A program made the translations under genes and the position numbers. Source: a virus. Taken from it: 64,000 nt of DNA. The notes under the pieces are model-generated. The model was given only the letters and a program-made list of their open reading frames with translations, was not told where the DNA came from and made no database searches. The DNA is taken from the IMG/VR virus record IMGVR_UViG_3300021957_004906, positions 1-64,000 of that record. One strand, given 5' to 3'. Below are positions 916 through 50,263 of the stretch, one piece after another; position 1 is the first letter of the stretch; every line of letters starts with the position of its first letter.

Positions 916-976
916 TTAACACTTGTAGGATTCAGGAAGGTCACTAGGTAATTACTCCTATTAATTTCCAACGCCT

Positions 977-1179: not shown

Positions 1180-1184
1180 ATAAT

Positions 1185-1261: not shown

Positions 1262-1269
1262 ACATATTC

Positions 1270-1346
1270 TGGCGGACCCTAGAGGATTCGAACCTCTGAC
1301 CTAGTGCTTAGAAGGCACTTGCTCTATCCAGCTGAGCTAAGGGACC
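1270..1346 (-). tRNA. tRNA-Arg (anticodon TCT)
   Basis: The minus strand gives acceptor GGTCCCT against AGGGTCC with a U-U mismatch at pair 3-70, anticodon stem AGTGC/GCACT with loop CTTCTAA, T arm AGAGGTTCGAATCCTCT and encoded CCA. It reads AGA/AGG, useful in an AT-rich genome. Its 5' end overlaps the 3' end of the upstream protein gene by 10 bases (1337-1346). Confidence 0.92.
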
Positions 1347-32991: not shown

Positions 32992-33449
32992 TGATAAGTG
33001 CAAGTGGGTGTTGCTTCTTGGCCCTTGATACCGGAAGAATAATGCTACAACAAAGAAGTAAGACTAGCAGTCATCCGTTAACTTGGAGTTTCTGGGGAGG
33101 AAAGTCTGAAAAGAAAGAACGTCCTATTGAAACATTATTAAGGGAATGTAACGAAGAAATGGGAATACTTCCTGATATTGAAAAAGTATATCCATTACAT
33201 ACTTTTCTTAGTGATGATAAAAAATTTACATATAATACATTCTGCATTACAGTATTTGAAGAGTTTATTCCTGTATGCAATGGTGAAAGTAGTGGGTATG
33301 CATGGGTAGGTATACATGCTTGGCCTAAGCCATTACATCGTGGTGCTAGAGCTGTATTAGAACAACCTGATATGGTTGAGAAAATTACAACAATATATAA
33401 TCGCCAAAAGGATAAACTAGACTTACCAAATTGGTTAGACAGTTTTTAA
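32991..33449 (+). CDS. Nudix hydrolase
   Basis: This 152-residue protein has a perfect Nudix box at residues 37-59: G-x5-E-x7-R-E-x-x-E-E-x-G-I (GKSEKKERPIETLLRECNEE, then MGI). The fold would hydrolyse a nucleoside diphosphate linked to another moiety (damaged NTP, ADP-sugar, NAD or RNA cap). The substrate cannot be read from the sequence; ADP-heptose metabolism is encoded nearby. Its ATG overlaps the gp15 stop (TAATG). Its stop and that of the convergent bilin reductase share the palindrome TTAA. Confidence 0.9.
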   Translation: MISASGCCFLALDTGRIMLQQRSKTSSHPLTWSFWGGKSEKKERPIETLLRECNEEMGILPDIEKVYPLHTFLSDDKKFTYNTFCITVFEEFIPVCNGESSGYAWVGIHAWPKPLHRGARAVLEQPDMVEKITTIYNRQKDKLDLPNWLDSF

Positions 33450-34117
33450 ACTTCTGGAAATAAACAATCTTCAATAAAATGTTTAACGTCAGATGCATCA
33501 AGACCAAGTGATTCCATAACTTTAGGCGTATGTGGATTTTGTTTTTGATAATGACAATATCTATTTTGTCTACGTTTTATTTGATCTGCATCATTTTTAA
33601 TATTAGTGTATTTAGGTAGATGTGTAAAATACATGTCTAGATTATCTAATGCCATTGTGACAACTTGGTCCATTTCTTGTATAGTTTTAACATTACTAAC
33701 TGCTACCATATGTGGTGTAAATATAGCTTCTGCCCAAGGAGGCAGTGCTCTTTCCTTTTTCCATTCTAAATTTTTAGTAGATTCTGCAAATAAATCTATC
33801 ATTGGATGTGACATTGGCCAGCTAGGGCTGTAGTCATGAAATGCTCCTGTTACTTTATTTTTACCACAAATTATATCAAATCCATATATCGGTGCCGTAT
33901 TATTAAAATTAGGAAAAACACAGATATGAGTCATATACAACCCTTTTGTATCTCTTGCATCTACACTATCTATATGAGCTCTTCTAAAATGGTCGCCTTT
34001 AAAAACCCGGTTAAGCCAATCAAACTCAGGGTCATCAAATGTTTCCTCACCCAACGTTGCACATTTTTTTATTATTTGTTGCTCACACTCTATCATTCTA
34101 TCCCAAATTTCACTCAT
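33446..34117 (-). CDS. pcyX: Ferredoxin-dependent bilin reductase, PcyA/PcyX type
   Basis: This 223-residue protein belongs to the ferredoxin-dependent bilin reductase family. The core [20 protein letters not shown] aligns with the PcyA segment that contains its two catalytic residues: His64 and Asp81 here are 17 residues apart, exactly like His88 and Asp105 of PcyA. The [13 protein letters not shown] segment follows as in the family. PcyA and the phage PcyX group keep this His, whereas PebA/PebB/PebS-type enzymes have Asn there (from memory). It would reduce biliverdin to phycocyanobilin or, if PcyX-like, phycoerythrobilin, using reduced ferredoxin. It overlaps the ALAS gene by 8 nt, so the two are co-translated. 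Confidence 0.88.
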
Positions 34118-35300
34118 ATATTATACCTTTAAGTTTATCAGCTAAATCATTTATCATTGCATCTGTATGAAACGGAGTTGGTGCAAACCGCAATCTTTCT
34201 GTGCCCATGTCCACTGTAGGATAATTAATTGCTTGCGCATATATATTATGATTTTCTATTAATTTATCACTTATTGACTTGCACTTTATTGGATCATTAA
34301 TCATAACTGGTACAATGTGTGTGTTATTTTCTAATACCTCGATTCCATTATTATGTAATGCTATTTTTAATTTTTTAACTATTTCTTGATGTTTGTTTCG
34401 TAATTCTATACCGTTTTTGCTACGCAAGTATTTTATGGCTGCTAATGCACCAGCACAGATTACAGGACTTATACTAGTGGTGAAAATAAATCCACTTGCT
34501 ACACTACGTATCGCATCTATAGCAATACCGTCTCCTGCAATATAACCGCCTTGGCAACCAAATGCTTTTCCTAATGTTCCATTAACAAAATCAACTCTGT
34601 CTTGTAGTCCTAGTTTTTCTAGATATCCTGCACCTTGTGATCCGTATAAACCTACAGCATGCACTTCGTCAATATATGTTATTGCATTGTATTTGTCTGC
34701 TAAATCTAAAATAGCTTCAATTTCACTTACATACCCATCCATACTATACACACTTTCAAATACAATGCAAGGGGTACCTTTTATTGATTTTAAAATATCC
34801 TCTAATTCCTGTATATTATTATGTTGGAAAATATGTTTTGGGGAACCACTATGTCTTATACCAGCTATTAAACTAGCGTGATTTTTACTATCACTTATAA
34901 ACTCAATATTTTCTACAATTTTACTAAGTGCTATTAGGCTCCATTCATTTGCGACATATGCACTAGTATACAGTAATGCACTGTTCTTTTTATGTAGACT
35001 AGCAATTTCATGTTCAAGTGCAACATGATAATGTGTAGTACCGCTTATATTACGTGTGCCACCACTTCCAGCACCTGTTTGACTAAGAGCTGTATGCATC
35101 GCATCACTTACTACTTTATGTTGTCCCATACCTAAATAATCATTACTACACCAGTTTACAATATTTTTAATATTATATGGTCCATACCAAATAGCATTAG
35201 GATAATCACCACTTTCTCTTAATATGTCATTAAAAATGCGATAATTTCCAGACTGCTTTAGTTGATCAATTTTATTTTGGAAGGTTTTTATGGGTATCAT
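34110..35300 (-). CDS. hemA: 5-aminolevulinate synthase (Shemin pathway)
   Basis: This 396-residue PLP enzyme of the alpha-oxoamine synthase family shows the ALAS-specific signature [13 protein letters not shown] (77-89), [39 protein letters not shown] (Asp211, His214), the PLP lysine in NGTLGKAFG (Lys245), FTTSISP and [13 protein letters not shown]. It condenses glycine and succinyl-CoA to 5-aminolevulinate, the committed step of heme synthesis in Alphaproteobacteria. All key residues are intact and the length matches the family. It is first in a two-gene operon with the bilin reductase. It is transcribed divergently from the heptose operon. No strong ribosome site precedes its ATG. Confidence 0.95.
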
Positions 35301-35382: not shown

Positions 35383-36279
35383 ATGCATATTGTTACAGGT
35401 GCCAGTGGATTTATTGGTAGTAATATGGTACAACATTTAAACCGCATGGGACATAATGATATTTTATGTGTTGATACATTAAACAGTGAAAAAGTAAAAA
35501 ATCTCCAAGGGCTCCAGTTCATTGATTTTATAAGTCCTAGTGAATTATTAACACAACAATTGGATGATTGTACATTGTGGCATTTAGGTGCTAATAGTAA
35601 AACTAGCAGTGACGACTGGGAAAGCATTTACAATTCCAATGTGGTATATACTAGAAAGCTATTGAGTAAATTTAATGATGTAGTTTTTGCTAGTAGTGCT
35701 AGTGTGTATGGAGACAATACTGATACTTCAGAGCATCCCGATAACGAGTCACCTAAAAACATGTATGCTGCTACTAAAATGATGTGTGATAATATGATTC
35801 GTTCATCACAAACAGGAAAACGACAGAGTTGGAGATTCTTTAACGTTTATGGCAATAGAGAATCACATAAAATAGAAGTACAGCAAGCTAGTCCATACAC
35901 TAACTTTACACATCAAGCAAAAACTACAGGAGTTATTAAACTATTTACTAATAGTAAAGATGTATTTCGCGACTTCATCTGTATTGACGATGTAGTGAGT
36001 ATAATGTATGATGTGCATGAACGCACAGATAATAACTTTATTAGTAATTTAGGAACTGGGAAAGTGTTTAGTTTTCAGCAATGGGGAGAGTTATTGGCTA
36101 ATAAGTATAATGCAGAAATAGAATATATCGAAATGCCAGACAGCCTTAAAAATATATATCAAATGTATACATGTAGTGATAATGAAAAACTAGGACATTT
36201 GCTAGATTATATTTGGGAGGATTTACGAGTACCATATCAGTTTTTAACACCAGAAGAATATATCGAGGATAATTTATGA
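35383..36279 (+). CDS. hldD: ADP-L-glycero-D-manno-heptose 6-epimerase-like protein
   Basis: This 298-residue extended short-chain dehydrogenase has an N-terminal GASGFIGSN NAD(P)-binding loop, a catalytic YAATK (Y-x3-K), and HldD-specific blocks: RFFNVYGNRESHK, LFTNSKDVFRDFICIDDVV, NLGTGKVFSFQQW and a final IEYIEMPDSLKNIYQMYT. It converts ADP-D-glycero- to ADP-L-glycero-D-manno-heptose, the donor for LPS inner core. It is the first gene of a four-gene operon, overlapping hldE by 4 nt. Other NDP-sugar epimerase specificity is possible but the blocks fit HldD best. Confidence 0.88.
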   Translation: MHIVTGASGFIGSNMVQHLNRMGHNDILCVDTLNSEKVKNLQGLQFIDFISPSELLTQQLDDCTLWHLGANSKTSSDDWESIYNSNVVYTRKLLSKFNDVVFASSASVYGDNTDTSEHPDNESPKNMYAATKMMCDNMIRSSQTGKRQSWRFFNVYGNRESHKIEVQQASPYTNFTHQAKTTGVIKLFTNSKDVFRDFICIDDVVSIMYDVHERTDNNFISNLGTGKVFSFQQWGELLANKYNAEIEYIEMPDSLKNIYQMYTCSDNEKLGHLLDYIWEDLRVPYQFLTPEEYIEDNL

Positions 36280-37427
36280 AAGTATTAGTGTTTGGTGATG
36301 TGATCGTCGACAAATATATCTATGGTACTAGTACAAGAATTAGTCCAGAAGCACCAGTGCCTGTTGTGACTTTTCAAGAAGAAAAAGAATCACTAGGCGG
36401 TGCAGGACTGGTGTATGAAAACTTAAAAAGCCTAGGCGTTGATACAACACTACTACAAACAGAACAGCCACGCAGTGTTAAGACCAGAATAATATGTGAC
36501 GGGCATTATATTACACGTATAGATGATGATAAAGATGCAGATTCAAATGCAGTATTAGCTAACGTATTACGCAGTGACTTCTCTCAATGGGATTATGTTA
36601 TACTAAGTGATTACGACAAAGGTGTATTAGACAATGCAAAACAAATTATTGCACATATAAACAGCCAAGGTCCTAAAGTAATTGTAGATCCAAAACGATA
36701 TGCACACGACTACGAAGGCGCTTGGTTAGTAAAGCCTAACAACAGCGAATATACTAAGTTTGAATTTGACGAATGGCAAGGCAACATTATTACCACAGAC
36801 GCAGGACATAGTGTGAGTGCTACAATAGACAATATCGAATATACTATTCCTGTAGAACAAGTCGAAGTATCAGATGTTACTGGCGCTGGAGATTGTTTTC
36901 TAGCTGCGTTTGTGTATGCACTTACTAAAGGTTACAGTCATAAAAAATGTTTACAGATAGCTGTTAGTGCAAGTACACAAAGTGTTAAGCATACTGGTAC
37001 ATATGTTTTAACTAAACAGGATGTAGAACGTACTAAAGTGTTTACCAATGGTTGCTTTGACATTGTACATCGAGGACATATTGAAATGCTCAAGGCTAGT
37101 AAACAATTGGGAGACTGGCTAGTAGTAGGGGTTAATACAGATCAAAGTGTTCGTCGTCTTAAAGGTGAATCTAGACCTGTTAATAATGAAAGTGACAGAA
37201 AAGTTCTGCTGGAAAGTTTAGACTTTGTTGATGAAGTAATACTGTTTGACGAGGATACGCCACTGGAATTAATACAACGTGTACAGCCAAACATAATTAC
37301 CAAAGGCGGGGACTATACAGTAGACACAGTTGTAGGTAACCAACTTGCAAAAGTTGTGATACTGCCAACAGTAGATGATTATAGCACAACAAATACAATA
37401 CAAAGGATTAATAATGACACAACTTAA
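36276..37427 (+). CDS. hldE: Bifunctional heptose-7-phosphate kinase / heptose-1-phosphate adenylyltransferase
   Basis: This 383-residue protein fuses two domains. Residues 1-245 are a ribokinase/PfkB-type kinase (VFGDVIVDKYIYG, SPEAPVPVV, DPKRYAHDYEG, VTGAGDCFLAAF with the catalytic Asp). Residues 250-383 are a cytidylyltransferase-fold domain (FTNGCFDIVHRGHIEMLKAS with the HxGH-type motif HRGH, VNTDQSVRRLKG, ITKGGDY). This is the HldE arrangement, though somewhat shorter than E. coli HldE (477). It phosphorylates heptose-7-phosphate and later adenylylates heptose-1-phosphate. The intermediate steps GmhA and GmhB are not seen here and would come from the host or elsewhere in the genome. Confidence 0.93.
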   Translation: MKVLVFGDVIVDKYIYGTSTRISPEAPVPVVTFQEEKESLGGAGLVYENLKSLGVDTTLLQTEQPRSVKTRIICDGHYITRIDDDKDADSNAVLANVLRSDFSQWDYVILSDYDKGVLDNAKQIIAHINSQGPKVIVDPKRYAHDYEGAWLVKPNNSEYTKFEFDEWQGNIITTDAGHSVSATIDNIEYTIPVEQVEVSDVTGAGDCFLAAFVYALTKGYSHKKCLQIAVSASTQSVKHTGTYVLTKQDVERTKVFTNGCFDIVHRGHIEMLKASKQLGDWLVVGVNTDQSVRRLKGESRPVNNESDRKVLLESLDFVDEVILFDEDTPLELIQRVQPNIITKGGDYTVDTVVGNQLAKVVILPTVDDYSTTNTIQRINNDTT

Positions 37428-37779
37428 AGGCCAGCAAGATAAAGGATGGGGTCGAGAATTAATTTTTGCCACTAATGACAAATACTGTGGCAAAATAATG
37501 TTCTTTGACAAAAAGGGTGCTAAGTTTAGTATGCATTTTCATAAAGAAAAAGACGAAAGTTGGTATGTACTTAATGGTAGTTTTACGCTACATATCATAG
37601 ATACTGATACTGCTGAAATGGAAACACATGTTTTAACAAAGGGAGAAACATGGCGTAACGAACCACTATTACCGCATCAGTTAATTGCAATGCAAGATAA
37701 TAGTATTATTATTGAAGTTAGTACTCCAGATAGCGTAGAAGACAACTATCGAATTATCAAAGGTGATAGTCAAACATGA
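37414..37779 (+). CDS. Cupin-domain protein
   Basis: The protein is 121 residues from MTQLKGQQDKGWGRELIF; the ATG at 37414 has AAAGGA just upstream, while the in-frame start 13 codons earlier lies inside hldE. It has a textbook cupin motif 1, G-x5-H-x-H-x4-E-x6-G (GAKFSMHFHKEKDESWYVLN, then G), and a later PHQL that fits motif 2. Metal-binding cupins of this kind occur in sugar-nucleotide operons as isomerases or epimerases (for example WxcM-like or mannose-6-phosphate-isomerase-like). The exact reaction is unknown. Confidence 0.75.
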   Translation: MTQLKGQQDKGWGRELIFATNDKYCGKIMFFDKKGAKFSMHFHKEKDESWYVLNGSFTLHIIDTDTAEMETHVLTKGETWRNEPLLPHQLIAMQDNSIIIEVSTPDSVEDNYRIIKGDSQT

Positions 37780-38510
37780 GTAAGCTATGGACGTTTGGGG
37801 ATAGTTTTGTTTCTCCAGTGAATAGATGTTATGATACAGAGCATTATCCAGAGTGGCATTGGGTTTATCAGCTTGGAAAAAAACTTGGGGTGTCAGGATT
37901 GTCTGGTGCTGCATTACCAGGGGTAAGTAATGAATGGATTTCACATCAGATAATGCAAAACATTAATAATATTAATAAGGATGATTTTATTGTTATTGTT
38001 ACAACTGGTATGCATAGACGCTGGTTTATTAAAGATAAACCAACGTTATCTAATTTATATATTGTTAACTTACATGAACATATGCCGCGAGATTCTTATC
38101 GTGCAATTGATCTTTACAAGCAAGAATTTAATGAACAGCATGAGTTTTTAAGTAAAATTTATTACGAACAATTTTTAACATGGATACGCTCAGTATTACA
38201 ACCTTACCAATATTGTTTAATACCAGGATTTGATGCTACAACATTGCATCATACTTCAAATAACATACCATTAGTAAAAGCTGATGAAGGCGAGTTTATT
38301 GATGGTTATGATAGAAAATTATTTGCGACATGGGAAGGTTGGGATAGGAGACTAAGTCATTTAAGTGAATGCAATCACGATGTATTGTCAGATAAAATTA
38401 CTAGATTTTTCAATACTAATGAACTAATAGATCTTAGCACTGAATTTAAGAAAAATTTATTTACCTGTAAGCAAGATTGTTTGGACTACAATTTAGATAT
38501 CTCAATATAG
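37776..38510 (+). CDS. SGNH/GDSL-hydrolase-like protein (paralogue B)
   Basis: This 244-residue protein begins MSKLWTFGDSFVSPVN with the GDSF nucleophile block and continues with LGVSGLSGAALPGVSNEWIS and HRRWFIKDKPTLSNLY. These shared blocks show it is a paralogue of the protein at 1337-2200. It overlaps the cupin gene by 4 nt (ATGA) in the heptose operon, so it may act on a saccharide acyl group (inference). Its 3' end overlaps the convergent methyltransferase gene by 25 bases. Confidence 0.65.
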   Translation: MSKLWTFGDSFVSPVNRCYDTEHYPEWHWVYQLGKKLGVSGLSGAALPGVSNEWISHQIMQNINNINKDDFIVIVTTGMHRRWFIKDKPTLSNLYIVNLHEHMPRDSYRAIDLYKQEFNEQHEFLSKIYYEQFLTWIRSVLQPYQYCLIPGFDATTLHHTSNNIPLVKADEGEFIDGYDRKLFATWEGWDRRLSHLSECNHDVLSDKITRFFNTNELIDLSTEFKKNLFTCKQDCLDYNLDISI

Positions 38511-39130
38511 TATACAGTATCTTTGTGTTCTATACTGTTACTAAAATTAGTTATATGTAGATTATTATTTGCTAACATATCACTAAATGTGTCTGGATTG
38601 CTTCCTGTTACATTTTCCATAAGCATTATTTTACCATCATCTGTCAGATAATCATTGACGGTATCAAAAAAGTCTTGATGTATTTTCCAATCTAAATCCT
38701 GCATTTTTCTCGGTTCATGTTCAGTCACTGTCAAGTCATCTCGCCATGCTGGCACAGTAAAATTAAAATGAGGCGGGTTTGCTATTATAAGATCAAATTT
38801 TTGTTTGGGGATTTGTTTAAAATTATCAGACAAGTAAAATACACAGTCTAAATTATTAACTTCTAAGCTCTGTAATAATACAGCTTGTGCATGTTCACTT
38901 ATGTCACTGAAACTAATTTGTTTTGCAAGTTTAGTATATAGTGCAGCAAGTCCAAAATAACCAGGGCCACAGCACCACTCTAGTGCATTTTTAAATTGTC
39001 GTCCTTGCGAAAAATGATGAAAGCAACTATTTGCATCTTTAACCGTTAAGTATCCAAATCCATCAGTATCATCGCTACTGAATACAGTATAATTCCCTAT
39101 ATTAACTGATGTTGTCGAGTTCAAAGTCAA
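38486..39130 (-). CDS. Class I SAM-dependent methyltransferase, PrmC/HemK-like
   Basis: The protein shows motif I LEWCCGPGYFGLAAL, an acidic strand-2 end (ISFSDISEHAQAVLL), and the N-P-P-H motif in LIIANPPHFNF typical of N-methyltransferases acting on a planar amide or base nitrogen (PrmC, RsmC/RlmG type). The start is uncertain. The open frame extends to a GTG/ATG at 39184/39181, but AAGAAGG lies 9 bases before a TTG at 39130, giving 214 residues and only a 29-base overlap with the upstream gene. Target unknown; ribosome, release factor or DNA are possible. Confidence 0.75.
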   Translation of the reverse strand: MTLNSTTSVNIGNYTVFSSDDTDGFGYLTVKDANSCFHHFSQGRQFKNALEWCCGPGYFGLAALYTKLAKQISFSDISEHAQAVLLQSLEVNNLDCVFYLSDNFKQIPKQKFDLIIANPPHFNFTVPAWRDDLTVTEHEPRKMQDLDWKIHQDFFDTVNDYLTDDGKIMLMENVTGSNPDTFSDMLANNNLHITNFSNSIEHKDTVYYIEISKL

Positions 39131-39641
39131 ACACAAATACCTTCTTATTTGTAGTGCATGGATACGCACCATGCCAAACATCACCGTCTAAGACAATTAG
39201 TGTTCCAGGCAATTGTTCAATTGTTTTAACATTTATAGATCCGTCTGGTTCTGGCAGTATAAAATAAAATATTCCTGATCCGACTTCGCCCTCTACACAC
39301 AGAACTACTGACACCGACTTGCCTCCCGGACCATGTTTATGTATTGCTTGCCAACCATTCTCCATATATTCAATATTCCAAGCTATCAATCTTTTTCCTA
39401 ATTTAAATGGAGCATTATGTGTGGATAAATGGGTGTTTACATAATCTCTAATATCATTAGTTAGTTCTATACCTTCATCATCTTCAAAATAGGTTTGCTG
39501 TGCAACATTACTAGCAACTAGGTCTGCTTCAACAGACCTAGTTGCTTGATTCCAATTTTCTAGTGTGGTTTGCCACTGTGGATATGTGGTTTCGATTGCC
39601 CATTTTGTATTATAAAAGGATGACCAAAAATTATTGCTCAT
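39102..39641 (-). CDS. Possible 2-oxoglutarate/Fe(II) dioxygenase-like (double-stranded beta-helix) protein
   Basis: This 179-residue protein has a C-terminal half that reads like a jelly-roll oxygenase: WQAIHKHGPGGKSVSVVLCV (candidate metal His), a mid-strand GSGIFYFILPEPDGS, LPGTLIVLDGDVWHGAYP (distal His) and VFVFDFEL. The classical HxD and the 2OG-binding Arg are not clear, so activity is uncertain. Such proteins are common in marine T4-like phages. It starts a two-gene unit with the methyltransferase. Confidence 0.5.
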   Translation of the reverse strand: MSNNFWSSFYNTKWAIETTYPQWQTTLENWNQATRSVEADLVASNVAQQTYFEDDEGIELTNDIRDYVNTHLSTHNAPFKLGKRLIAWNIEYMENGWQAIHKHGPGGKSVSVVLCVEGEVGSGIFYFILPEPDGSINVKTIEQLPGTLIVLDGDVWHGAYPCTTNKKVFVFDFELDNIS

Positions 39642-39739: not shown

Positions 39740-41584
39740 TTAGACTGGTGTCCAATTTCCTTTAAAGATTAATTTTCCAAACTCTGGCAAATACAAGTAC
39801 TCAACATCACTATTAGATACAGTTTTCAATGCATCTTCTAATGTTTCAACTAATGGTTCTCCACCTAGATTGAAACTAGTGTTAAAGATAATAGGACACC
39901 CTGTTTTTTCTTTAAACGCTTTAATAATATCATAGTAATGCGGATTTTGATCCCTGTTAACTGTTTGAATACGACAAGTGCCATCTATGTGAATAATAGC
40001 TGGAATCTTTTCTTCAATACCGGGCTGACAATTTACAGCATACATCATAGTTGGAGAACTTTCCATACCACGCAAATCAAACCATTCATGCACGTCTTCT
40101 TCCAAGATACTACCTGCAAATGGACGGAAATATTCTCTGTGTTTTACACTGTTTACAAAATCTTTTCCATCTGGATCTGTGGGATCATACATTAAACTTC
40201 TGTTACCCAATGCACGTGGTCCATTTTCACTACGTCCTTGAAACAATGATACAATATTTTTACTAGTTATAAGTTCCACTATGTCATCATGTGTAGCATC
40301 ACTAATTGTACAATCATATTTTTCTGCTAATGTTTCAATATATTGTTGAGTATAATCATATTTTGGTCCCAAATAAATCTCTGGGTTATGTTTCTCTTCT
40401 GATCGAGACATTTCATAATACCCCCAAAGTGCTGCGCCAATCGCAGTACCGCCATCATTACTGCATGGCTCTACATATAAATTAATACCTTCTTCACTCA
40501 ATTTATCCAAATAGTGATAATTTGCAACACAGTTTAGTCCATATCCACCACTAAGAACAACATTCTTTTGTCCAGAAAATTCTACTGCACTTTTAATTAA
40601 ATTTAATACTTGTTCTTGTGTTTCTGTTTGTACAGCATATGATAGATCTTTGCGGTTTTGTAGATCTGGAAACTTTTCATGTTCCCCTGGGGTAAATGCA
40701 AGCTCTGAATAAGCTGGATAATTTATATATGCAGCATTAGGATAGGTTGGAATAATTAAATTTCTATTTACAGTTGGAATAGTAGTATCTGTAGAAAAGA
40801 TAGAAGGTATATTGTCATTAGGTTTACCATAGGGAAATAATCCCATAGTCTTACCAGCTTCAATTGCTTGAAATCCATTATAGATAGTAGCTGCTTCATA
40901 TGCTTTAACAATGCCAGCATTTGGAGATAATACTGCTATGTGTTTTCCATCTTCACCTATACCCTCACTAGAACATTGGTATTCTATCTGATGTGGAACA
41001 GGTTCTCTTGTACCAAAATGTTTATAATAAGTTTTAAATTCTGCTGGATATTTAACACCAATAATACTTTCAACTTCCCAAGCAACAATGGTTTCCTCTC
41101 CTTGGAAGGGTAAATTACACCTTACATTTGCAGCTGATCCTGCGCCATCTACAACAACTGCCACAGCTTCGTCAAATCCACTTCTATAAAAAGCACAAGC
41201 TGCATGAACTTTGTGGTGCTGGCTTGCTAAATCAATTACTTGTGGACTTAGCGGTTGTTCTGGAGTTGGTATATGAAAATCAATAAGTCCAAGTTTACGT
41301 GCCATTCCAGAGTAAATATCATCACTCATATACTCAATACACAAGTCTCCGGCGGCACCAAGTGTTGTTGTATGTGATATGAACATATAATCAATTTTAT
41401 CAGTATAATCAAGAACTTTAACCATTCCAGCAAGCGGCGAGCCGTCATATTTTGCTCTGCTAAGACGCTCTTCTTCAACTGAAAATACTACTTCACCATC
41501 CTTTAGTAGACATACGCCTGCATTATGACCTCTACTAATACCTAAAATGTACCCAGTATTATTAACTCTATTTAATTTTTTCAT
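39740..41584 (-). CDS. Carbamoyltransferase (NodU/CmcH/TobZ family)
   Basis: This 614-residue protein has the two-domain layout of the family. An N-terminal Kae1-like domain carries GISRGHNAGVCLLKDGEVVF, VEEERLSRAKYDG, SQHHKVHAACAFYRSGFD (the metal-binding HHxxHA) and VVDGAGS. A C-terminal domain carries GRSENGPRALGNRSLMYDP, EYFRPFAGSILEEDVHEWF and FNTSFNLGGEPLV. It transfers a carbamoyl group from carbamoyl phosphate through carbamoyl-adenylate to a hydroxyl, usually on a sugar or antibiotic. Next to a glycosyltransferase, the target is probably a surface or DNA-linked sugar (inference). Confidence 0.93.
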   Translation of the reverse strand: MKKLNRVNNTGYILGISRGHNAGVCLLKDGEVVFSVEEERLSRAKYDGSPLAGMVKVLDYTDKIDYMFISHTTTLGAAGDLCIEYMSDDIYSGMARKLGLIDFHIPTPEQPLSPQVIDLASQHHKVHAACAFYRSGFDEAVAVVVDGAGSAANVRCNLPFQGEETIVAWEVESIIGVKYPAEFKTYYKHFGTREPVPHQIEYQCSSEGIGEDGKHIAVLSPNAGIVKAYEAATIYNGFQAIEAGKTMGLFPYGKPNDNIPSIFSTDTTIPTVNRNLIIPTYPNAAYINYPAYSELAFTPGEHEKFPDLQNRKDLSYAVQTETQEQVLNLIKSAVEFSGQKNVVLSGGYGLNCVANYHYLDKLSEEGINLYVEPCSNDGGTAIGAALWGYYEMSRSEEKHNPEIYLGPKYDYTQQYIETLAEKYDCTISDATHDDIVELITSKNIVSLFQGRSENGPRALGNRSLMYDPTDPDGKDFVNSVKHREYFRPFAGSILEEDVHEWFDLRGMESSPTMMYAVNCQPGIEEKIPAIIHIDGTCRIQTVNRDQNPHYYDIIKAFKEKTGCPIIFNTSFNLGGEPLVETLEDALKTVSNSDVEYLYLPEFGKLIFKGNWTPV

Positions 41585-41600: not shown

Positions 41601-42593
41601 TTATTTTTTCTTAGTCTGTAGCATTAGTGGCAAATTATCTATTTTATTTTTAGATTTAGTTGCATCTTTAGATTTTGGTTTTCCTAGTTTTTCTTCTATG
41701 CTATCAATTATTTGTTTCATAACATTATCATCAAAAATCATAAGATCTTCGCTATCACGTTCTATAGCAAAATCATGCGTTACTCTAAATGGTTGATATT
41801 CTCTAGTTTCTTTGCCATTATCAATAATTGTAAAATCTTTATTTCCAGGGTATGAAATATTTTCAGGATATGTTGCCCCTATTACTACCGTAGCTGGTTT
41901 TCCTAATGCGTTTGCATAATGTTGTCCCATGCTATCACATCCTAAGAAATAATCACATGCATTAACAATACCCATCCATTGTAACAAATTTGTATCATTT
42001 GGCATAACAGCACCCATTTGTTTTTCTGTGGGTATTTCTAAATTTGTCATTAATATAACAGCGTAATTTTTTGCCAATTCATCAACAATACGTATAATAT
42101 CTCTCACTTCAAAACTACGACCACTACTATCATATAAGAAACTACCATCACGTTTTGCGCCAGATCCTAATGGTTGAAATACTATAGCTTTTTCTTTTCC
42201 AGTTTGCTGTTTAAGTTGCGCAATCATATTATGCCCATATACTTGATCAGCTTTATTAATTTCTAAGTTAAATGATTTCGATTCAGGAATATCATCAAGG
42301 TCATTAATAAGTATATCAAATGCTTGAATTAGATTTACTTTTTGAGTAAAATATGCATTCAATCTATAGGGCTCGGGACTGATAAGTTCAGTTTGTTTTA
42401 GTTTATCCCATAATCCTTTGCTATTTGCTGGCCAAATATTATTACGTAATTTTTTGCTACTATAAAATAATTCTTGCCAAGCTTCAGCAACAATTACAAC
42501 ATCGTCTGCAACATTATCTTTGTAGTATTCTAAACCAGGAATACTACAAAGAACTCTACCGGCGCCGCCGTTAATAAAAAATGATTTTTTCAT
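41601..42593 (-). CDS. GT-B glycosyltransferase, heptosyltransferase (GT9)-like
   Basis: This 330-residue protein starts with a GT-B N-terminal loop (FINGGAGRVLCSIPGLEYY). Its C-terminal nucleotide-binding half contains VFQPLGSGAKRDGS, YAVILMTNLEIPTEKQ, NLLQWMGIVNACDYFLGCDS and HYANALGKPATVVIGATYP, the pattern of ADP-heptose:LPS heptosyltransferases. This matches the ADP-heptose genes 4-6 kb away. It is transcribed from a consensus promoter with the carbamoyltransferase, and could add a modified heptose to host LPS or a virion component. Family placement is from motif resemblance. Confidence 0.7.
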   Translation of the reverse strand: MKKSFFINGGAGRVLCSIPGLEYYKDNVADDVVIVAEAWQELFYSSKKLRNNIWPANSKGLWDKLKQTELISPEPYRLNAYFTQKVNLIQAFDILINDLDDIPESKSFNLEINKADQVYGHNMIAQLKQQTGKEKAIVFQPLGSGAKRDGSFLYDSSGRSFEVRDIIRIVDELAKNYAVILMTNLEIPTEKQMGAVMPNDTNLLQWMGIVNACDYFLGCDSMGQHYANALGKPATVVIGATYPENISYPGNKDFTIIDNGKETREYQPFRVTHDFAIERDSEDLMIFDDNVMKQIIDSIEEKLGKPKSKDATKSKNKIDNLPLMLQTKKK

Positions 42594-42689: not shown

Positions 42690-43784
42690 TTAAGAGCAAA
42701 CCCAACTAACACAGATCATCCCCATGCGTCCGCTATCGCCACCGCAGCTTTGACAGCCGCCGCCAACTGTACTAGCGGCTCCGCCTGATCCTGGAATTTG
42801 TCTATTATTACACCCAGTGTAATTACATCCAAAACAACTTGTACCGTTTTGCCAAAAAGTCATAGCGCAACTACAATCTTCATATCCAAATACTGGTGCT
42901 GGGCAGGTATAAGTTTGGGCGTTGGTTAAGTTGCTCTGCGATATTTGCATCATTGGGAACATTGATGGTATACCGTATACTGTACCATTGTATGTGGTTA
43001 GGACACTAGGACTATACGCCCATGTTCTCTGACAATCATATAAGAAGTCAATACACATACCATCATTACCACTATCCCAACAAAAATTCCAACCACTACA
43101 ATTATCAGGACCACACTTATCAGTGTTACAACCTGGCGCCTGAAAGAAGCTATTAGCTTGGAGATTGTTTATCGCAGCAACACAATTCCATTTGCAGAAA
43201 CAACTAATGGTATCACCACTACAGGTAGTAATACAAACGCTAGCATTACCACTACAAATACAAGTATTTCCGCCGCACCCACCGTGGCTAGTTTGATAAG
43301 CAAAACAACAATAAGCGCATCCAGCACAAAGACACCAGCAATGTCCTGGAGTCACATCTAATTCTACCACACTATAAGCACCACTAGCACCAAACGGTGC
43401 TCCTCCACAGCAACAATTACTGCCTGTTCCTGCTCCAGGACCCCAACTTTGGAATCTAGCTCTAGTTACACCTGGTGGTACGCACCAGGTACAGGTCTGC
43501 CCACATCTAAAGTAACCACTGGTATCGCATACTTTAAAACCATTTGCTTGAGAGTCTGTGACTGTTCCAATTGTGGCTGCCCATTCTGCTTTTAAAGCAG
43601 CGGTGGATCCACTAAAGTCACTAGCTCCTCCGCCAGAAGACCGCGACTTGCACCAATCACCTGATTGGCTGTTCTCTCCACAATATTGTTCCAATGTTGG
43701 ACCTGAACCTGATCCAGCCGCTGGCATTAGTGGAAGTAGTCTTGCATTTTCTTTTAGTGCGGCATATAGTAAAACGTCACTCAT
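42690..43784 (-). CDS. Extremely cysteine-rich virion-type protein A
   Basis: This 364-residue protein contains 39 Cys (about 11%). After an N-terminal SDVLLYAALKENARLLPLMP helix it has a C-rich version of the glycine-rich adhesin domain: RCGQTCTWCVPPGVTRARFQ, SWGPGAGTGSNCCCGGAPFG, ASGAYSVVELDVTPGHCWCL. These positions align with PGTYSWLCPTGVTKVSVVCI and the following Gly-rich loops of the 998-aa adhesin. It is paralogous to the 341-aa protein at 44497-45522. It lies among late tail genes. Dense Cys suggests disulfide or metal cross-linking of a surface protein, but no signal peptide is present. Confidence 0.75.
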   Translation of the reverse strand: MSDVLLYAALKENARLLPLMPAAGSGSGPTLEQYCGENSQSGDWCKSRSSGGGASDFSGSTAALKAEWAATIGTVTDSQANGFKVCDTSGYFRCGQTCTWCVPPGVTRARFQSWGPGAGTGSNCCCGGAPFGASGAYSVVELDVTPGHCWCLCAGCAYCCFAYQTSHGGCGGNTCICSGNASVCITTCSGDTISCFCKWNCVAAINNLQANSFFQAPGCNTDKCGPDNCSGWNFCWDSGNDGMCIDFLYDCQRTWAYSPSVLTTYNGTVYGIPSMFPMMQISQSNLTNAQTYTCPAPVFGYEDCSCAMTFWQNGTSCFGCNYTGCNNRQIPGSGGAASTVGGGCQSCGGDSGRMGMICVSWVCS

Positions 43785-43802
43785 TTTGTTTCCTTTAGAT
43801 TA

Positions 43803-44462
43803 TTATAATACAGTATCTGGATCTGGTAATGTTTTTAATAAATTTACTACAGCCATTGGTAATTTTGGTAGGTTACCTTCTGCTACAGTAATATATTTCC
43901 ATGGTAATACACTAGCATTAGCTGTAGTATAATCACTAGCGGCTGTTTTAAAAGCAGCAATCAACACTTTAGTATCATCATCTAAATCATATGTATTTTC
44001 ATATTTTTCCAGCCACCGTAGTCTTTTATCAAGTATTAGTTCATGTGTAGTTTTCTCAAGTTTATATAATGGAACTAATTCAACATCTGTTCCATCAGAA
44101 TTAACTACTAAATCTTTCCAATCTCTTAGTCTAGGATTGGTTATTTTTTTATAAACACTACCATCTGCTTGTGTTTCATTTTCATACGTATATTCAAAAT
44201 CATCAGCTAGCACTTTCATCCATTGCCCAATTTCAGGCCTATCGTTACAATCAATTTCAATAATAGTACAATTTGGATGTTCATCTTGCGGAATTTCTTT
44301 TTCAGTATCAAATCCCATTAAATTATCCCCATGAACTGCTACCCATACAGTATCAGTACCAGTATACGTATACGTAGCTGTGTTAACTGGATCATCTGTC
44401 CATTTGTTTAACCAAAGCTCATCTTGAACATTAACTGTAAATTCTTTTGTTATATCTGCCAT
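43803..44462 (-). CDS. Hypothetical structural-type protein between the two Cys-rich genes
   Basis: This 219-residue protein has an N-terminal beta-rich part (KEFTVNVQDELWLNKWTDDP, YTYTGTDTVWVAVHGDNLMG) and a C-terminal helical part (LEKTTHELILDKRLRWLEKY). It contains only two Cys, in contrast to its neighbours. A late box (44482-44489) precedes it. Not recognised; its position between two related Cys-rich proteins suggests a partner or assembly factor for them. Confidence 0.6.
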   Translation of the reverse strand: MADITKEFTVNVQDELWLNKWTDDPVNTATYTYTGTDTVWVAVHGDNLMGFDTEKEIPQDEHPNCTIIEIDCNDRPEIGQWMKVLADDFEYTYENETQADGSVYKKITNPRLRDWKDLVVNSDGTDVELVPLYKLEKTTHELILDKRLRWLEKYENTYDLDDDTKVLIAAFKTAASDYTTANASVLPWKYITVAEGNLPKLPMAVVNLLKTLPDPDTVL

Positions 44463-44481
44463 ATTTTTTTACCTTCGTAAT

Positions 44482-44489
44482 TATTTATC
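44482..44489 (-). promoter_or_regulatory. T4-late-like promoter box
   Basis: GATAAATA on the minus strand, 19 bases before the 219-aa gene, in the gap after Cys-rich protein B. Confidence 0.55.
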
Positions 44490-44496
44490 TTATTCA

Positions 44497-45522
44497 TCAC
44501 TCTGACCACCATGACACTTTTACATGTCCTGGGTGTGGCATTCCACCGCAATTTGAGTTCGCTCCACCCATATGATGGGCAAACGTGGCTCCTTGACCCC
44601 AGTGTTCACACTGGCAGGTATTACAATAAGCACCGCAATTAATACCGCCGCAGCATTGCCCACTAGAAAACGTAGCACAACAATCACAAGTTCCAACTAG
44701 CTGAGTATGCTCGTGGCTTATTCCTGGCGGTCTTATTTTATATCCATAATGGTTTGTGTCGAAACACGTGACTGGGTAAACACTGTTAAACCCACCATAA
44801 TTGTTACTTGATTGAGCTCCACCTAAACTTACATAAAACCCACGATCAGGATCTACTGAATATTCAACTTCTCCGCACGTTGCACACGAGCTGGCAAAAC
44901 AATAATCGCCACCACTATTACAAATACATGCTCCGGATGATTGTGACGTTTTGGATTGGAATCTACAACAAGACGAACCCGACAGTACTTGTATATGTCT
45001 AAATACACCACTACAGCCACCAAATGCACACATACATACTTCATAATCTGTGCCAGCCATTCCAGTTACAGTGGAAGCACAATGGGTACATGCACCAACT
45101 CCTCTACCAGGATGACAACATTGAGCACACGCTGAACATAGTAGATAGGTTGCACCAGGGCAAACATCAGCAATTGCTACTGCATACGCACCATTTGCTC
45201 CATATTCTGATCCACCGCAACAACACCCAGGCATCGTGTTTGCTCCTGCTCCCCATATCTGGAACATAGCTTTATTGGTAGCAGCTGGCACAGTCCAGGT
45301 GCAGCTATTGCCACATCGATAGGGACACGCACTGTTTTGTACGTCAAGTACATTTGATGCTGTTTTTCCAGCACCACAATACGGTAGTAATACCCATCCT
45401 TCTATACAAAATGGACAATTATCTAAGGCGGATTGCAATCCTGCTAAGTTAGTATCTTCAATGCATTGTTGCATAGCTTTATTTGATTCCATAATCTGAT
45501 TATATAATAATGCATCTGCCAT
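44497..45522 (-). CDS. Extremely cysteine-rich virion-type protein B
   Basis: This 341-residue protein with 38 Cys is a paralogue of the protein at 42690-43784. Both share a short N-terminal helix (ADALLYNQIMESNKAMQQ here), CPYRCGNSCTWTVPAATNKA, FQIWGAGANTMPGCCCGGSE, GANGAYAVAIADVCPGATYL and CSACAQCCHPG, in the same order and spacing. The rest is a run of CxC, CC and CxxC motifs, ending in a His/Gly-rich PHPGHVKVSWWSE. A late box overlaps the end of the upstream gene. Role as a disulfide-armoured tip or surface protein is inferred. Confidence 0.75.
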   Translation of the reverse strand: MADALLYNQIMESNKAMQQCIEDTNLAGLQSALDNCPFCIEGWVLLPYCGAGKTASNVLDVQNSACPYRCGNSCTWTVPAATNKAMFQIWGAGANTMPGCCCGGSEYGANGAYAVAIADVCPGATYLLCSACAQCCHPGRGVGACTHCASTVTGMAGTDYEVCMCAFGGCSGVFRHIQVLSGSSCCRFQSKTSQSSGACICNSGGDYCFASSCATCGEVEYSVDPDRGFYVSLGGAQSSNNYGGFNSVYPVTCFDTNHYGYKIRPPGISHEHTQLVGTCDCCATFSSGQCCGGINCGAYCNTCQCEHWGQGATFAHHMGGANSNCGGMPHPGHVKVSWWSE

Positions 45523-45550: not shown

Positions 45551-45558
45551 TATTTATC
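45551..45558 (-). promoter_or_regulatory. T4-late-like promoter box
   Basis: GATAAATA on the minus strand, 28 bases before Cys-rich protein B and overlapping the stop of the 1568-aa fibre gene. Confidence 0.55.
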
Positions 45559-48500
45559 ATTGCTCAACAACTGCAATTTCAGTTACAGTACCAGATGTAG
45601 CATCGTATGTAATGGTTACATTGTTAGTTTTTCCTGCAACTGAGTCAGCTTCAGTATAGCTTGTTATACGTTTGAAACTACCAAAGACCAGCGATCCACT
45701 GTCTGCTCTACCAACAGTTTCATATACTATATTAGTATATGAAATTGATCCAACTGTTCCGGCAGTTACAAATCCGTCTGAATTTAACGTAAGACTACTT
45801 GATAAGAATGTGTTTGTTAATCCAGCACCGCCGCCGCCTGAGCCGTATTCAAAACCAGTTCCCCCAGCATTTACTTTAAGTACTTTTCCAGCAGCACCAA
45901 TTGCCAATCTCTCAGGAGCAGTTGCCCCTCTTACGATAATATCGCCTTGTGTTGTTAATAATGATTTAGCAATTTTAGTATCTGCATAAGTTTTAACAGC
46001 CTGTTCTGTCGGGACTGATAAGTTACTATTACCTGACAACGACCCATCACTACTAAATTCGTTAATACTTTCTCCCAATTGAGCACCAATACTACCAAGT
46101 CTTAAACTTGTCAAACCAGCTAGGTCAAATGCACTTGCATCCAATGTAGCTCTACCAGTAGCTTGGTCAACTCTAAAGTAACTACCAACTCTAAAGTTAC
46201 CATCTTGGTCTGTACTTACATAGTAAACACGTCCTGGGAATGTTTCAGTAACTTCTCTACCTTGTGCTGCATCTTGTGTTGGTACACCTGGATAGTTACT
46301 GCTTTCTTTTGTACCAGTACCAATACTTAGGAAGTCATGTCCTGTTAAACGTACTTGACTATATCTGTATCTGATATTGAATCGTTGTCCATAGTATGTT
46401 GCCGCTGTATTTTGTTTTTCCGTTGCCAATGTTACGGTAACTGTGCCACCTTGTGTATCATTTGATTCTTTAACATAATTACTTACACTTGTGATAATAT
46501 AAGTTAAAGAATCTACACCTGTATTTTGATCATCGGTAATATCTGTGTTATCTGCTGGATTTATTACTGGACCAGTAATAAATTCTAAACTACCGCCTGC
46601 TACTGGAATACTACTAAGGCCACCCAGTACCATGGCAAATCCAAATTGTCCTTGGTTTGCCTTGTCAGTACCTGCCGGATTCGTTAGTGTCGCAAATTGC
46701 CCATCTTGTGCTGTTATGACTGTATTGTTAGCAAACGGATAAGTTATCATACCATGTACTTGCTCTCTAAACGCATCTGCTGTACTATGTTGTGTTGTTG
46801 TTTCGTATTTAATTGTTGGTCTTGCGCCAATTGGCTTAACTGCATTTGCTGTTGCGCTTACAAAAGAGTGGACACTAGCTGCCGCCGCTCCAGTTGCTAC
46901 GCCAACATTAACTGTAATTGTTGTAGCTGTTACCTCAAGTATTGATATATAAGTTTCAAATACACCCGCACTACTCGCTTTTGGATATGCAATTTGTGTT
47001 GTATTACCATCATATGCACACGTAAATGTCAAACTTTCATTATCTAAAATAATATGTGACCCCAAGGCTAAACTGTGTGCGCCAATTTCCAATACCATCA
47101 CACCAGTAGTTGGATCATATGTAGTTCCAGTTGTTGGAGTGAATTTTCTTCCTCCACCCATTCCAGAATGATTTTTACATACTGCATATAAATCTGCGAC
47201 GGAGCCAATTACTCTAACTTCTCTAGCAGTTGCGGAAGCAAACCCACTATCATAAGCAGCTAAGTTGCCTACATTTACACCATCTAACCAGTACTCTACA
47301 CTTGATCCACTACCAAGCCCAGCTGCCGCATCTTTAGCTACAGTATGTTCTGCGCCGCCAGCATGGATACCGTCAGCAGTTGTACTAAAATATAGTGGAT
47401 GACTAATATTAGTACTATCATTTTGTTCAAAAATGTACATCCTGTGTTTAGTGTCCATTTTAATAGCTTGTGCTTCTTGCCCATTAAACAGATATCTGTT
47501 TCCCAATCCATTATTTTGAACAGTTACTTTAAATGTTTGCCCTGCATAACCATGATAGATATCATTAATAACTAGTCTATGCTTAGTTGCTGGATTTAAA
47601 TTTGTTTGTATATTAGCAACACTGGCTGTATATTTTGTTGATAGTACATTTCCTCCCGATAGTGTAGTACCGTTTAGAATTCTTGTTGCACTACCGCCAC
47701 TAGTATAAGCTGTATACGCTGTTCCGTCTACACTGTTTGAAAGTCCAGAATCACTATAAAGTTCAAGCGTGTTAGTTGTAACATTGGCTGCATAATAGTC
47801 ATTTCCATTAAGTTGTGTCATACCTGCAACACCTGTTACTGCTTGAACTAATTGACCATTAGAATATCCGTGATTAGCTGCCGTTATAATAACTGGGTTA
47901 CTACGTGTTGCATCTTGAATTGCCACTGTAACAAATCCCCAACCAGCAAGTGATCGTGTATCTAGATAATTAGTTAAATCTGGGTTTGTACATATTCTAA
48001 AACTAGTTGTATCTACAACGTCTGCATACCATGTTCTGTTATACATATTTGCTGTTCCGTGGCTACCTAAAATTGGCTGCCATACGGCTTCAGGAATGCT
48101 ACTAAATGCAAATCCTTCACCTTCAGAAAATCCATGAGCGCCTGTTGTGGTAACAGTTGCCTGTTGAGCTATACTTATTCCAGTTATTGACTGTGATGAA
48201 TCAGTCTGTGAACCAGTTATTGTATCACCAACTGTAAATCCATCTGTTGTATTAAGAGTTGATACTGTGTACTCAACTGTATCACCATAAACATATCCGC
48301 TTAGTGGAAATTCAGAAGTATCAAAACCTTGTGAAACTGCACCGTATTCGCCGTAACTGTTGTTACCGTTTAGCGCACGTATTTTACCGCCGCCAGTAGC
48401 AGCATAACCGTAAGTATTATAGTATGTAAAGCAACTAACAATTTCACTCAATCCGTTGTCTTTTATCCAAAATCCTATGCCACCGTTATGTACTTGTGTA

Positions 48501-50263
48501 AATGTGTGAAACACCATACTACCCGCTGTACCTGCGGCAACAACCGATCCATCTACAATAGCACCAACGCCTCCTGTTGAGAACGCACTTGATTCTTTGA
48601 TGTATGGAGATTTGGCTAATGTAGCACCGGGTTCAATTCTAAAGTAACAACCTTTAACTGTCGACGCTGTAATATCACTTGGTGTATTGTCAACAAATCC
48701 GGTTAAACCTTTAAGGAGTACGCCTTCTATCATTGTTCCACTGTTTACAAAAAACATTGTAGCTTCATTGTTTGGTGTTACACCATCATCACTAATACCT
48801 GCACCAAATCCACCATCATTCACTGTGTCTGGTTGGATTATACAGTTACGCTGTCCGTCACCAACAATAGTAGTATTAATCGGAATATGAATTGGAAGTT
48901 GCTCGCTGTAAGTACCATCTTTGATAAAGATTGTAGCTGGTGTTCTGTTTGCTACGTCAGCGTTGATATAATCACATGCAAACCGAAGGCTTGCAAACGC
49001 ATAGTCAATTGCCTGTCCATGATCATTATCATCAGCACTACTAGTACTGTCTTCTGACACATAGTAAATTTTATCATTAGCACCACTAAACTGCCAACTA
49101 TAGTTTATACCATCTGGTGTCTGTAAGTACTTACCAGCTTGTCCAGCTGTATTTGGAAGCACATAACTAGCACCAACAACAAAACTAGTCCATAATCCAT
49201 TTGCACTATCTACAAAAAAGTCACTACCTGCTACGTGATCACTAGCTGCAATATATGTACTGACACTTTCACTAACAATATCGTCTTTAAGATATGTTGT
49301 GCCAGCTGTCCAGGCTCCCATATAACGAACGCCACTATTAAACTTTATCCATTTATTTGCAGCTAGGTCAGTATTAAATACTCCTGACGTGTGACTAATT
49401 AAACAATTATAAGTATTACCTCCGTATACTACAATATCGTTAATTGCAAAGGCTGTTGATGTTATCCAATCACCTCTTGAATTTACACCAGTTGAAAATA
49501 ATTCCCATTCAGTTGTATTTGTATCTGGAGATTTACCAACGTTATCAATTTTAGCTGAATAAACGTTTCCACCAAATCTTACAGTTTCACCAACAAAATA
49601 ATCTGTAGTCGGTCCCCATAACCCTCTAAAACTATTACCTGTACTAAACAGCTCCCAAAATCCGTTATTAGTTGGTATATTTCCAGATGTTTCTAGTGTA
49701 CAACGATAAATGTTGGCACCGTAGGCTACTAAGTCACCTGGTACATAATTAACGGCATTATTATAAACACCTGCTGCACTAATTCCATCAACAAACTGAT
49801 CCCAATATGTTGAAGCCGTTGGCAAATTTCCTGTCGTATCTTGTTTAGCAATATATGTTTTTGCACCATATTGTACTATATCATTCTTTTGATAAACGCC
49901 TGCGCTACTATAAACACCTTCCCATTGAATACCATCTGCAAATTGGCTCCAGTATGTTGCATTTGGAGGGGTGTTTCCTTGTGTATCAGCTATAGCAATA
50001 TATACTGCACCACCATGTGCAACCCCGTCACCAACACGATATTGTGTTGCTCCATCATATATTTGTCTAAATTTAAAACCTTCTACCATTAACGCCCAAT
50101 ATGCTGCGTTTGTTGGGAGGTTTCCAGCTGTTCGTGTCACGCTACTGTAAACGTAAACGTTACCACCATACTTTACTACATCATTAATTTCATAAGTTGT
50201 GGCTACTTGCCAATCACCTGCAAAGTGAAATCTTAGTTTACCAAGGTCTAATATTGTTGCCAT
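45557..50263 (-). CDS. Large tail-fibre/tailspike-like protein with carbohydrate-binding repeats
   Basis: This 1568-residue protein starts MATILDLGKLRFHFAGDWQV. Residues about 15-370 hold seven or so ~50-residue repeats of the type W-x-x-x-T-x-Y-x-x-x-D-x-V-x-Y-G-G-x-x-Y ... G-N-x-P-x-x-x-x-Y-W, which resemble chitin-binding CBM5/12 modules. The central part (about 400-700) looks like a right-handed beta-helix (IFIKDGTYSEQLPIHIPINT, TTIVGDGQRN). The remainder is beta-rich repeats and a fibre-like C-terminus. Binding, and perhaps cleavage, of a surface polysaccharide is likely; no catalytic residues can be assigned. Confidence 0.8.
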   Translation of the reverse strand: MATILDLGKLRFHFAGDWQVATTYEINDVVKYGGNVYVYSSVTRTAGNLPTNAAYWALMVEGFKFRQIYDGATQYRVGDGVAHGGAVYIAIADTQGNTPPNATYWSQFADGIQWEGVYSSAGVYQKNDIVQYGAKTYIAKQDTTGNLPTASTYWDQFVDGISAAGVYNNAVNYVPGDLVAYGANIYRCTLETSGNIPTNNGFWELFSTGNSFRGLWGPTTDYFVGETVRFGGNVYSAKIDNVGKSPDTNTTEWELFSTGVNSRGDWITSTAFAINDIVVYGGNTYNCLISHTSGVFNTDLAANKWIKFNSGVRYMGAWTAGTTYLKDDIVSESVSTYIAASDHVAGSDFFVDSANGLWTSFVVGASYVLPNTAGQAGKYLQTPDGINYSWQFSGANDKIYYVSEDSTSSADDNDHGQAIDYAFASLRFACDYINADVANRTPATIFIKDGTYSEQLPIHIPINTTIVGDGQRNCIIQPDTVNDGGFGAGISDDGVTPNNEATMFFVNSGTMIEGVLLKGLTGFVDNTPSDITASTVKGCYFRIEPGATLAKSPYIKESSAFSTGGVGAIVDGSVVAAGTAGSMVFHTFTQVHNGGIGFWIKDNGLSEIVSCFTYYNTYGYAATGGGKIRALNGNNSYGEYGAVSQGFDTSEFPLSGYVYGDTVEYTVSTLNTTDGFTVGDTITGSQTDSSQSITGISIAQQATVTTTGAHGFSEGEGFAFSSIPEAVWQPILGSHGTANMYNRTWYADVVDTTSFRICTNPDLTNYLDTRSLAGWGFVTVAIQDATRSNPVIITAANHGYSNGQLVQAVTGVAGMTQLNGNDYYAANVTTNTLELYSDSGLSNSVDGTAYTAYTSGGSATRILNGTTLSGGNVLSTKYTASVANIQTNLNPATKHRLVINDIYHGYAGQTFKVTVQNNGLGNRYLFNGQEAQAIKMDTKHRMYIFEQNDSTNISHPLYFSTTADGIHAGGAEHTVAKDAAAGLGSGSSVEYWLDGVNVGNLAAYDSGFASATAREVRVIGSVADLYAVCKNHSGMGGGRKFTPTTGTTYDPTTGVMVLEIGAHSLALGSHIILDNESLTFTCAYDGNTTQIAYPKASSAGVFETYISILEVTATTITVNVGVATGAAAASVHSFVSATANAVKPIGARPTIKYETTTQHSTADAFREQVHGMITYPFANNTVITAQDGQFATLTNPAGTDKANQGQFGFAMVLGGLSSIPVAGGSLEFITGPVINPADNTDITDDQNTGVDSLTYIITSVSNYVKESNDTQGGTVTVTLATEKQNTAATYYGQRFNIRYRYSQVRLTGHDFLSIGTGTKESSNYPGVPTQDAAQGREVTETFPGRVYYVSTDQDGNFRVGSYFRVDQATGRATLDASAFDLAGLTSLRLGSIGAQLGESINEFSSDGSLSGNSNLSVPTEQAVKTYADTKIAKSLLTTQGDIIVRGATAPERLAIGAAGKVLKVNAGGTGFEYGSGGGGAGLTNTFLSSSLTLNSDGFVTAGTVGSISYTNIVYETVGRADSGSLVFGSFKRITSYTEADSVAGKTNNVTITYDATSGTVTEIAVVEQ

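Follow-up and report, generated by a model that had tools for sequence, protein, structure and literature searches.

Genes for a GT9-like (heptosyltransferase-family) glycosyltransferase are strongly associated in phage genomes with genes for cysteine-rich proteins, including proteins unrelated to the pair from which this analysis started. That pair, here termed A and B, is encoded in a stretch of 64,000 nucleotides (the window; positions 1 to 64,000 of the IMG/VR record IMGVR_UViG_3300021957_004906), within a virus record of 197,947 bases that carries T4-like head and tail genes. The co-travel of the cysteine-rich proteins with one sugar-transferring enzyme suggests that their cysteines serve for the attachment of sugar and not for ordinary disulfides. 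We propose, giving it an even chance, that A and B are the receptor-binding tips of the tail fibre and that their cysteines are mainly acceptors for glycosylation by the GT9-like enzyme, the sugar probably being heptose from ADP-heptose. Modification by the transferase, cysteine as the acceptor and heptose as the sugar are all things that we infer, with the S-linkage based on the association.

Protein A (44497..45522, minus strand; 341 aa, 38 Cys) and protein B (42690..43784, minus strand; 364 aa, 39 Cys) contain 11.1% and 10.7% cysteine respectively, as against a mean of 0.70% (133/19067) for the 48 other window genes examined; the runner-up in the window is a 140-aa ORF with 4.3%. An earlier note on this DNA had singled out 42690-45522 as coding for two proteins with about 11% cysteine, and both ORFs stand as placed, although a third gene with 2 Cys (43803-44462) lies between them. 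The paralogy claimed there also holds, in that BLASTP aligns A with B at 46% identity over 85 aa (E=6e-21), both match phrog_35878 over most of their length, and the order of blocks common to the two is conserved. Their cysteines are encoded by an ordinary mixture of TGT and TGC codons, and inspection by eye revealed no signal peptide. We consider A and B to be genuine genes because homologues exist in P-SSM2 and because every cysteine (38/38 and 39/39) is retained in relatives that are 91-96% identical and differ by 13-34 substitutions; the homologues and this conservation also rule out chance or a frame artefact as the source of the cysteine-richness.

The composition, described in the earlier note as exceptional, is indeed far above that of the other window genes but is not confined to this phage. 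A and B match phrog_35878 and phrog_4205, both listed among the PHROGs as of unknown function, and a search of marine myoviruses, as the note had advised, recovered homologues in P-SSM2 and others. The resulting family is large, viral and nameless, being seen in P-SSM2, S-SSM7, S-CAM1, S-CAM3, Sf-FS3 and 76 IMG/VR loci, with cysteine contents ranging from 6% to 12%. A genome scan found no relatives in bacteria, a PDB sequence search gave no matches, and the open literature searched contained no report of cysteine in this family or of S-glycosylated tail proteins. Two copies are typical (63/68 loci with both flanks present), and three tandem copies occur in S-SSM7, S-CAM1, S-CAM3 and Sf-FS3. 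The P-SSM2 homologues PSSM2_304 and PSSM2_306 have 36 Cys each and stand in the same order as in the window, namely tail fibre 301, cysteine-rich 304, 305, cysteine-rich 306, 307 and carbamoyltransferase 308.

The tail-region location given in the earlier note is upheld by the window and its relatives alike: directly upstream of A lies a gene for a 1568-aa tail fibre protein (45557..50263, minus strand; phrog_9851), and the cysteine-rich genes adjoin a tail-fibre gene in 61/72 loci recovered in a single-pass search, as well as an annotated one in P-SSM2, S-SSM7, S-CAM1 and S-CAM3. The window tail fibre additionally displays seven CBM_5_12-like carbohydrate-binding repeats (5.4e-18). The conserved partner gene between A and B (43803..44462, minus strand; 219 aa) codes for a protein with an N-terminal beta domain and C-terminal helices, whose confident model (92.9) has a layout similar to TfaMu and Pam3 gp25 and returned no PDB match. 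It might be a fibre assembly chaperone, although the fold search gave no confirmation, and a Tfa-type identity was set aside for lack of a fold match to TfaMu or Pam3 gp25.

To place A and B structurally we combined profile and fold searches. The PF21722 (Gly_rich_2) model is matched by 19/88 relatives at E<=1, and the members from S-CAM1, S-CAM3, S-SSM7 and Sf-FS3 exceed its curated cut-off (25-39 bits vs 24.3), whereas window A and B themselves do not reach it. The AlphaFold (AF2) model of A (pLDDT 89.1, pTM 0.87) predicts a helix at residues 4-35 followed by a TNF-like/glycine-rich fold. Among PDB structures it best matches the Pam3 fibre (7ypx, 1.3e-4), the Bxb1 tail tip (4.8e-4) and the TNF-like/glycine-rich region of ALK/LTK (~1e-3), all with low whole-chain TM-scores (0.3-0.45), and in a viral structure library it matches P-SSM2 Q58M49 (3.6e-24) and dozens of proteins with a glycine-rich domain, Syn9 gp38 among them. 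The profile matches and the model give good support to the prediction that the A/B family is a cysteine-loaded form of the TNF-like/glycine-rich (Gly_rich_2) tail-tip adhesin. As described in PMC9608196 and PMC12892980, domains of this type make up the receptor-binding tip in Pam3 and S16/PP01, and A and B are probably the host-gripping tips of the tail. Like A and B, Pam3 gp24 and S16/PP01 gp38 are small fibre-tip proteins with an N-terminal helix and a beta plus glycine-rich domain, the beta part being TNF-like or a beta-helix. A and B differ in occurring as 2-3 tandem copies with an accompanying transferase gene and in having about 14% Gly and 10-11% Cys, as against the 39% Gly given for the Pam3 gp24 glycine-rich domain; a cysteine-rich adhesin does not appear in the searched text of either paper. 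The window also provides an internal control, a glycine-rich protein of the ordinary kind (28532..31528, plus strand), which contains two Gly_rich_2 domains, is encoded away from the GT9-like gene and has 3 Cys in 998 aa; other in-frame Gly_rich_2 domains away from the cluster in the same phages have 0-3 Cys.

Examination of the cysteines across 88 members showed 13 columns that are Cys in at least 85% of them, corresponding to about 12 of the roughly 31 domain cysteines; conserved positions in homologues, on which the earlier note had made its reading depend, are thus present. These conserved cysteines may be structural and not acceptors. About 60% of the cysteines fall at positions that turn over and hold T, Y, R, N, Q or K when Cys is absent, a spectrum that would resemble the behaviour of exposed sites. 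Glycine is under-represented among the replacing residues (0.40x), which rules out Cys as a plain Gly substitute in glycine-rich motifs. CxxC, CC and CCC blocks lie at conserved positions, and Cys-Cys spacings of 1-4 are enriched 1.25-1.57 times relative to shuffles. Even and odd cysteine totals are 54/45 and, within the domain, 35/53, with no pairing bias, and a variance test gave no sign of a conserved total. On the tree of members few pairs of cysteine columns co-change. Cys70/Cys135 is the clearest such pair, lost jointly on 4 branches; this joint loss and the 13 conserved columns fit either disulfide bonding or a metal site in common. The parity and co-change results would, as weak evidence, speak against a fully disulfide-paired protein. 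The earlier note had allowed only metal binding or oxidation after lysis, a restriction that the data do not support, given the lack of an even-number bias, the few co-changing pairs and the third option offered by the GT9-like association. A search for an Erv1-type oxidase found no match, but the control of the same search also matched nothing; thioredoxin and glutaredoxin were not found in the virus record of the window. Bilin attachment to the cysteines, considered because the window has a bilin reductase, is weakened by the absence of the reductase from 3/10 carriers.

The GT9-like gene of the window (41601..42593, minus strand; phrog_8954, with PF01075 and PDB profile matches), whose product is the proposed modifier of A and B, is followed by a NodU/HypF-like carbamoyltransferase gene (39740..41584, minus strand). 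In all 79 testable loci the GT9-like gene lies no more than 1.9 kb downstream of the cysteine-rich genes, and a carbamoyltransferase comes after it in every testable locus of the family (69/69). Carriers of the GT9-like gene among 50,697 phage records are cyanophages with the cysteine-rich family, two marine single-cell viruses and Vibrio/Aeromonas phages. Inspection of five such extra records showed that the neighbouring tail proteins are cysteine-enriched (73 Cys/758 aa, 31/290, 26/282, 23/560, 41/926 and 41/1757), even though by the family HMM they are non-homologous to A and B. In the Vibrio/Aeromonas loci the carbamoyltransferase is not beside the GT9-like gene, and the cysteine-rich neighbour is still present. 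A genome scan found no bacterial homologues of the Aeromonas GT9-like protein.

We then scanned in reverse, twice with GT9-like alignments and once with the Vibrio SBP1 transferase, and obtained 162 loci. In the first set a cysteine-rich protein is present in 63/64 loci having upstream sequence; in the one exception (L188) the tail fibre ends in a fused glycine-rich domain containing about 20 Cys, and this fibre (L188:1592-7408) is a possible intermediate between ordinary and cysteine-rich tips. In a second, more distant set cysteine-rich proteins are common, often 4-8 kb off, with 37/63 within 3.5 kb. The cysteine threshold and distance limit varied between these counts, and the search interval was widened after the 37/63 result. 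The final criterion, by which the control was also scored, defined cysteine-rich as at least 8 Cys in 150 aa and used loci of at least 12 kb, with the surroundings of the portal gene as controls: a cysteine-rich ORF was found in 86/94 GT9-like loci vs 1/37 control loci (Fisher p = 2.7e-23, which overstates independence, the loci being partly redundant). The cysteine-rich neighbours form about 21 BLAST clusters, some of which may be remote homologues. Eight GT9-like loci of this length have no cysteine-rich gene in the available flanks (L235, L240, L241, L258, L261, L271, L272 and L273); where these were inspected, a carbamoyltransferase-like gene is mostly next after the GT9-like gene. Extreme examples among the tail-region neighbours are L213:5312-8875 (131 Cys/1188 aa) and L215:2302-6675 (137 Cys/1458 aa). 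Two others, L148:6532-7395 and L158:6523-7422, have N-terminal I/L/V-x-x-I/L/V-x-x-C-I/V repeats (4 matches each vs 0.1-0.2 in shuffles), which would set cysteines along the side of what may be a coiled coil.

The GT9-like family matches PF01075 in 47/51 members at E<=0.1 (best 1.8e-7), although the window protein, at 0.0012, does not pass the Pfam cut-off, and its PDB profile matches are to LPS heptosyltransferases only (best E 0.011). Global profile alignment with E. coli WaaC/WaaF/WaaU sets GGAGRV opposite the WaaC motif SSMGDV, the local alignment covering the C-terminal part only. This places an arginine at the position of Asp13, which we take to be the catalytic base of WaaC; arginine occurs there in all 49 aligned A4 members and all 80 divergent members, and aspartate in none of them. 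Because of this replacement we call the enzyme GT9-like and not a WaaC orthologue. As a hint from sequence, the arginine is consistent with a thiol acceptor, which would have less need of a base.

Further sugar genes of the window point to a possible donor. An HldD-like ADP-glyceromanno-heptose epimerase (35383..36279, plus strand; TIGR02197, 1.7e-63) and an HldE-like heptose-phosphate kinase/adenylyltransferase of ADP-heptose synthesis (36276..37427, plus strand; NF008454, 4.8e-84), both scoring under the NCBIfam equivalog cut-offs, are accompanied by a WbuC-like cupin (37375..37779, plus strand) and a small methyltransferase (MTS; 38486..39184, minus strand) whose link to the system is uncertain. 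Outside the window, the same virus record contains two more nucleotidyltransferase genes (G000:C1:184200-184562 and 187173-187568) with a relationship to the adenylyltransferase domain of HldE. Each of the cyanophage-type records tested has HldE- and HldD-like genes, which were not found in the Vibrio and Aeromonas phages with the GT9-like gene, nor in three freshwater records (fragments) with both the cysteine-rich and GT9-like genes. Vibrio and Aeromonas hosts should make ADP-heptose for their LPS. The distribution is suggestive of an ADP-heptose donor that would be supplied by the host in the latter phages. According to Sullivan 2010 (PMC3037559), S-SM2 carries several of the same sugar genes, which in that account might be functional or might be stuffer DNA, and proteomics is described for S-SM1. 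Among the 50,697 phage records S-SM2 gave no match for the cysteine-rich family or the GT9-like gene, and these sugar genes therefore have other uses too.

Taken as a mechanism, the short N-terminal helix of A and B would serve in attachment or trimerisation, and the TNF-like/glycine-rich domain that follows it would present a surface loaded with cysteine. The phage's own HldE/HldD-like enzymes would make ADP-heptose, from which the GT9-like enzyme would probably S-heptosylate A and B by moving heptose onto cysteine sulphur; in some phages the heptose might be carbamoylated, the result being a virion with a sugar-coated adhesin. Extended to all the loci, the proposal is that a system widespread among phages uses a GT9-like enzyme with Arg at the WaaC-Asp13 position to S-glycosylate cysteines by the dozen on tail adhesins that have many unrelated folds, giving a thioether-linked sugar coat, with cyanophages bringing their own ADP-heptose pathway. 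A general base would be unnecessary in such a system because the acceptor would be a thiolate. We place this general form a shade below even odds. Weighing against S-glycosylation are the 8/94 loci without a cysteine-rich gene, the 13 conserved cysteine columns and the three freshwater records.

The main rival remains a disulfide-armoured adhesin, with cysteines reduced in the cell and oxidised after lysis so that the tail tip is locked covalently, as in phage Milano, whose virion, according to PMC10491603, is assembled in the cytoplasm yet owes stability to many disulfides and is destabilised by DTT. The conserved columns, the joint loss of Cys70/Cys135 and the confident AF2 folding of the domain accord with such locking; yet the cysteine totals show no pairing bias, few pairs co-change, and the Milano structural proteins, at 2.4% Cys, are far under 11%. 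Nor does locking account for unrelated cysteine-rich tail proteins accompanying one glycosyltransferase, and we hold it to be unlikely. The association is equally unaccounted for by a tip in which the CCC, CC and CxxC clusters hold Zn or Fe for rigidity. Metals do rigidify T4 fibre tips, and the conserved blocks and enriched short spacings would suit metal sites; however, such sites are unlike the turnover of about 60% of the cysteines, and the columns change to R/K/Q/Y, not to His/Asp, making this the most doubtful of the readings. Disulfide locking and metal binding both gain little support.

A different possibility is that the transferase could act on Ser/Thr or on another tail protein, the cysteine-richness having some other common cause such as a thiol-reactive receptor or regional history. 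The heptosylation of the adhesins AIDA-I and TibA is O-linked on Ser, the carbamoyltransferase and further sugar genes share the cluster, and the eight transferase loci without nearby cysteine-rich genes fit as well. Against this, the feature common to the unrelated neighbours is cysteine, not Ser/Thr, and it is the cysteine-rich neighbour that the Vibrio/Aeromonas loci keep, with no carbamoyltransferase adjoining the transferase; we judge this explanation rather improbable.

Glycosylation of the cysteines has partial precedents. In the TibC/TibA and Aah/AIDA-I systems a dedicated heptosyltransferase that uses ADP-heptose is encoded beside its adhesin target, just as the GT9-like gene adjoins its proposed one, but these are bacterial adhesins modified on Ser, neither of phages nor on Cys. 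In sublancin, through SunS, and in glycocin F a glycosyltransferase puts a sugar on cysteine sulphur; these enzymes are GT2-type and not GT9, and modify one or two cysteines of a small peptide rather than dozens of virion sites. Milano (PMC10491603) is similar in having unusually cysteine-rich virion proteins made in the cytoplasm, but there they are capsid, collar, neck and sheath proteins, and a transferase link was not found in the searched text. If true, the proposal would mean that virion proteins are S-glycosylated at multiple sites and would add a new specificity to the GT9-like enzymes, and sugar coats on phage tail tips would be worth seeking. It would offer a testable use for sugar genes left open by Sullivan 2010 (PMC3037559). 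The receptor-binding proteins of large cyanomyoviruses are mostly unassigned, and PSSM2_304/306 (P-SSM2), SSSM7_114-116 (S-SSM7) and SXBG_00224-226 (S-CAM1) are candidates.

As to the host, no match to psbA or psbD was found in the whole 198-kb record, and a cyanobacterial host is therefore not certain. At 33446-35300 (minus strand) the window encodes a 5-aminolevulinate synthase (TIGR01821, 5.7e-165, over the cut-off) beside a ferredoxin-dependent bilin reductase, a pair resembling the phage valaS/PcyX cassette (PMC11480375). At 562-1346 (minus strand) six tRNA genes are clustered, for Thr, Leu, Ser, Trp, Met and Arg.
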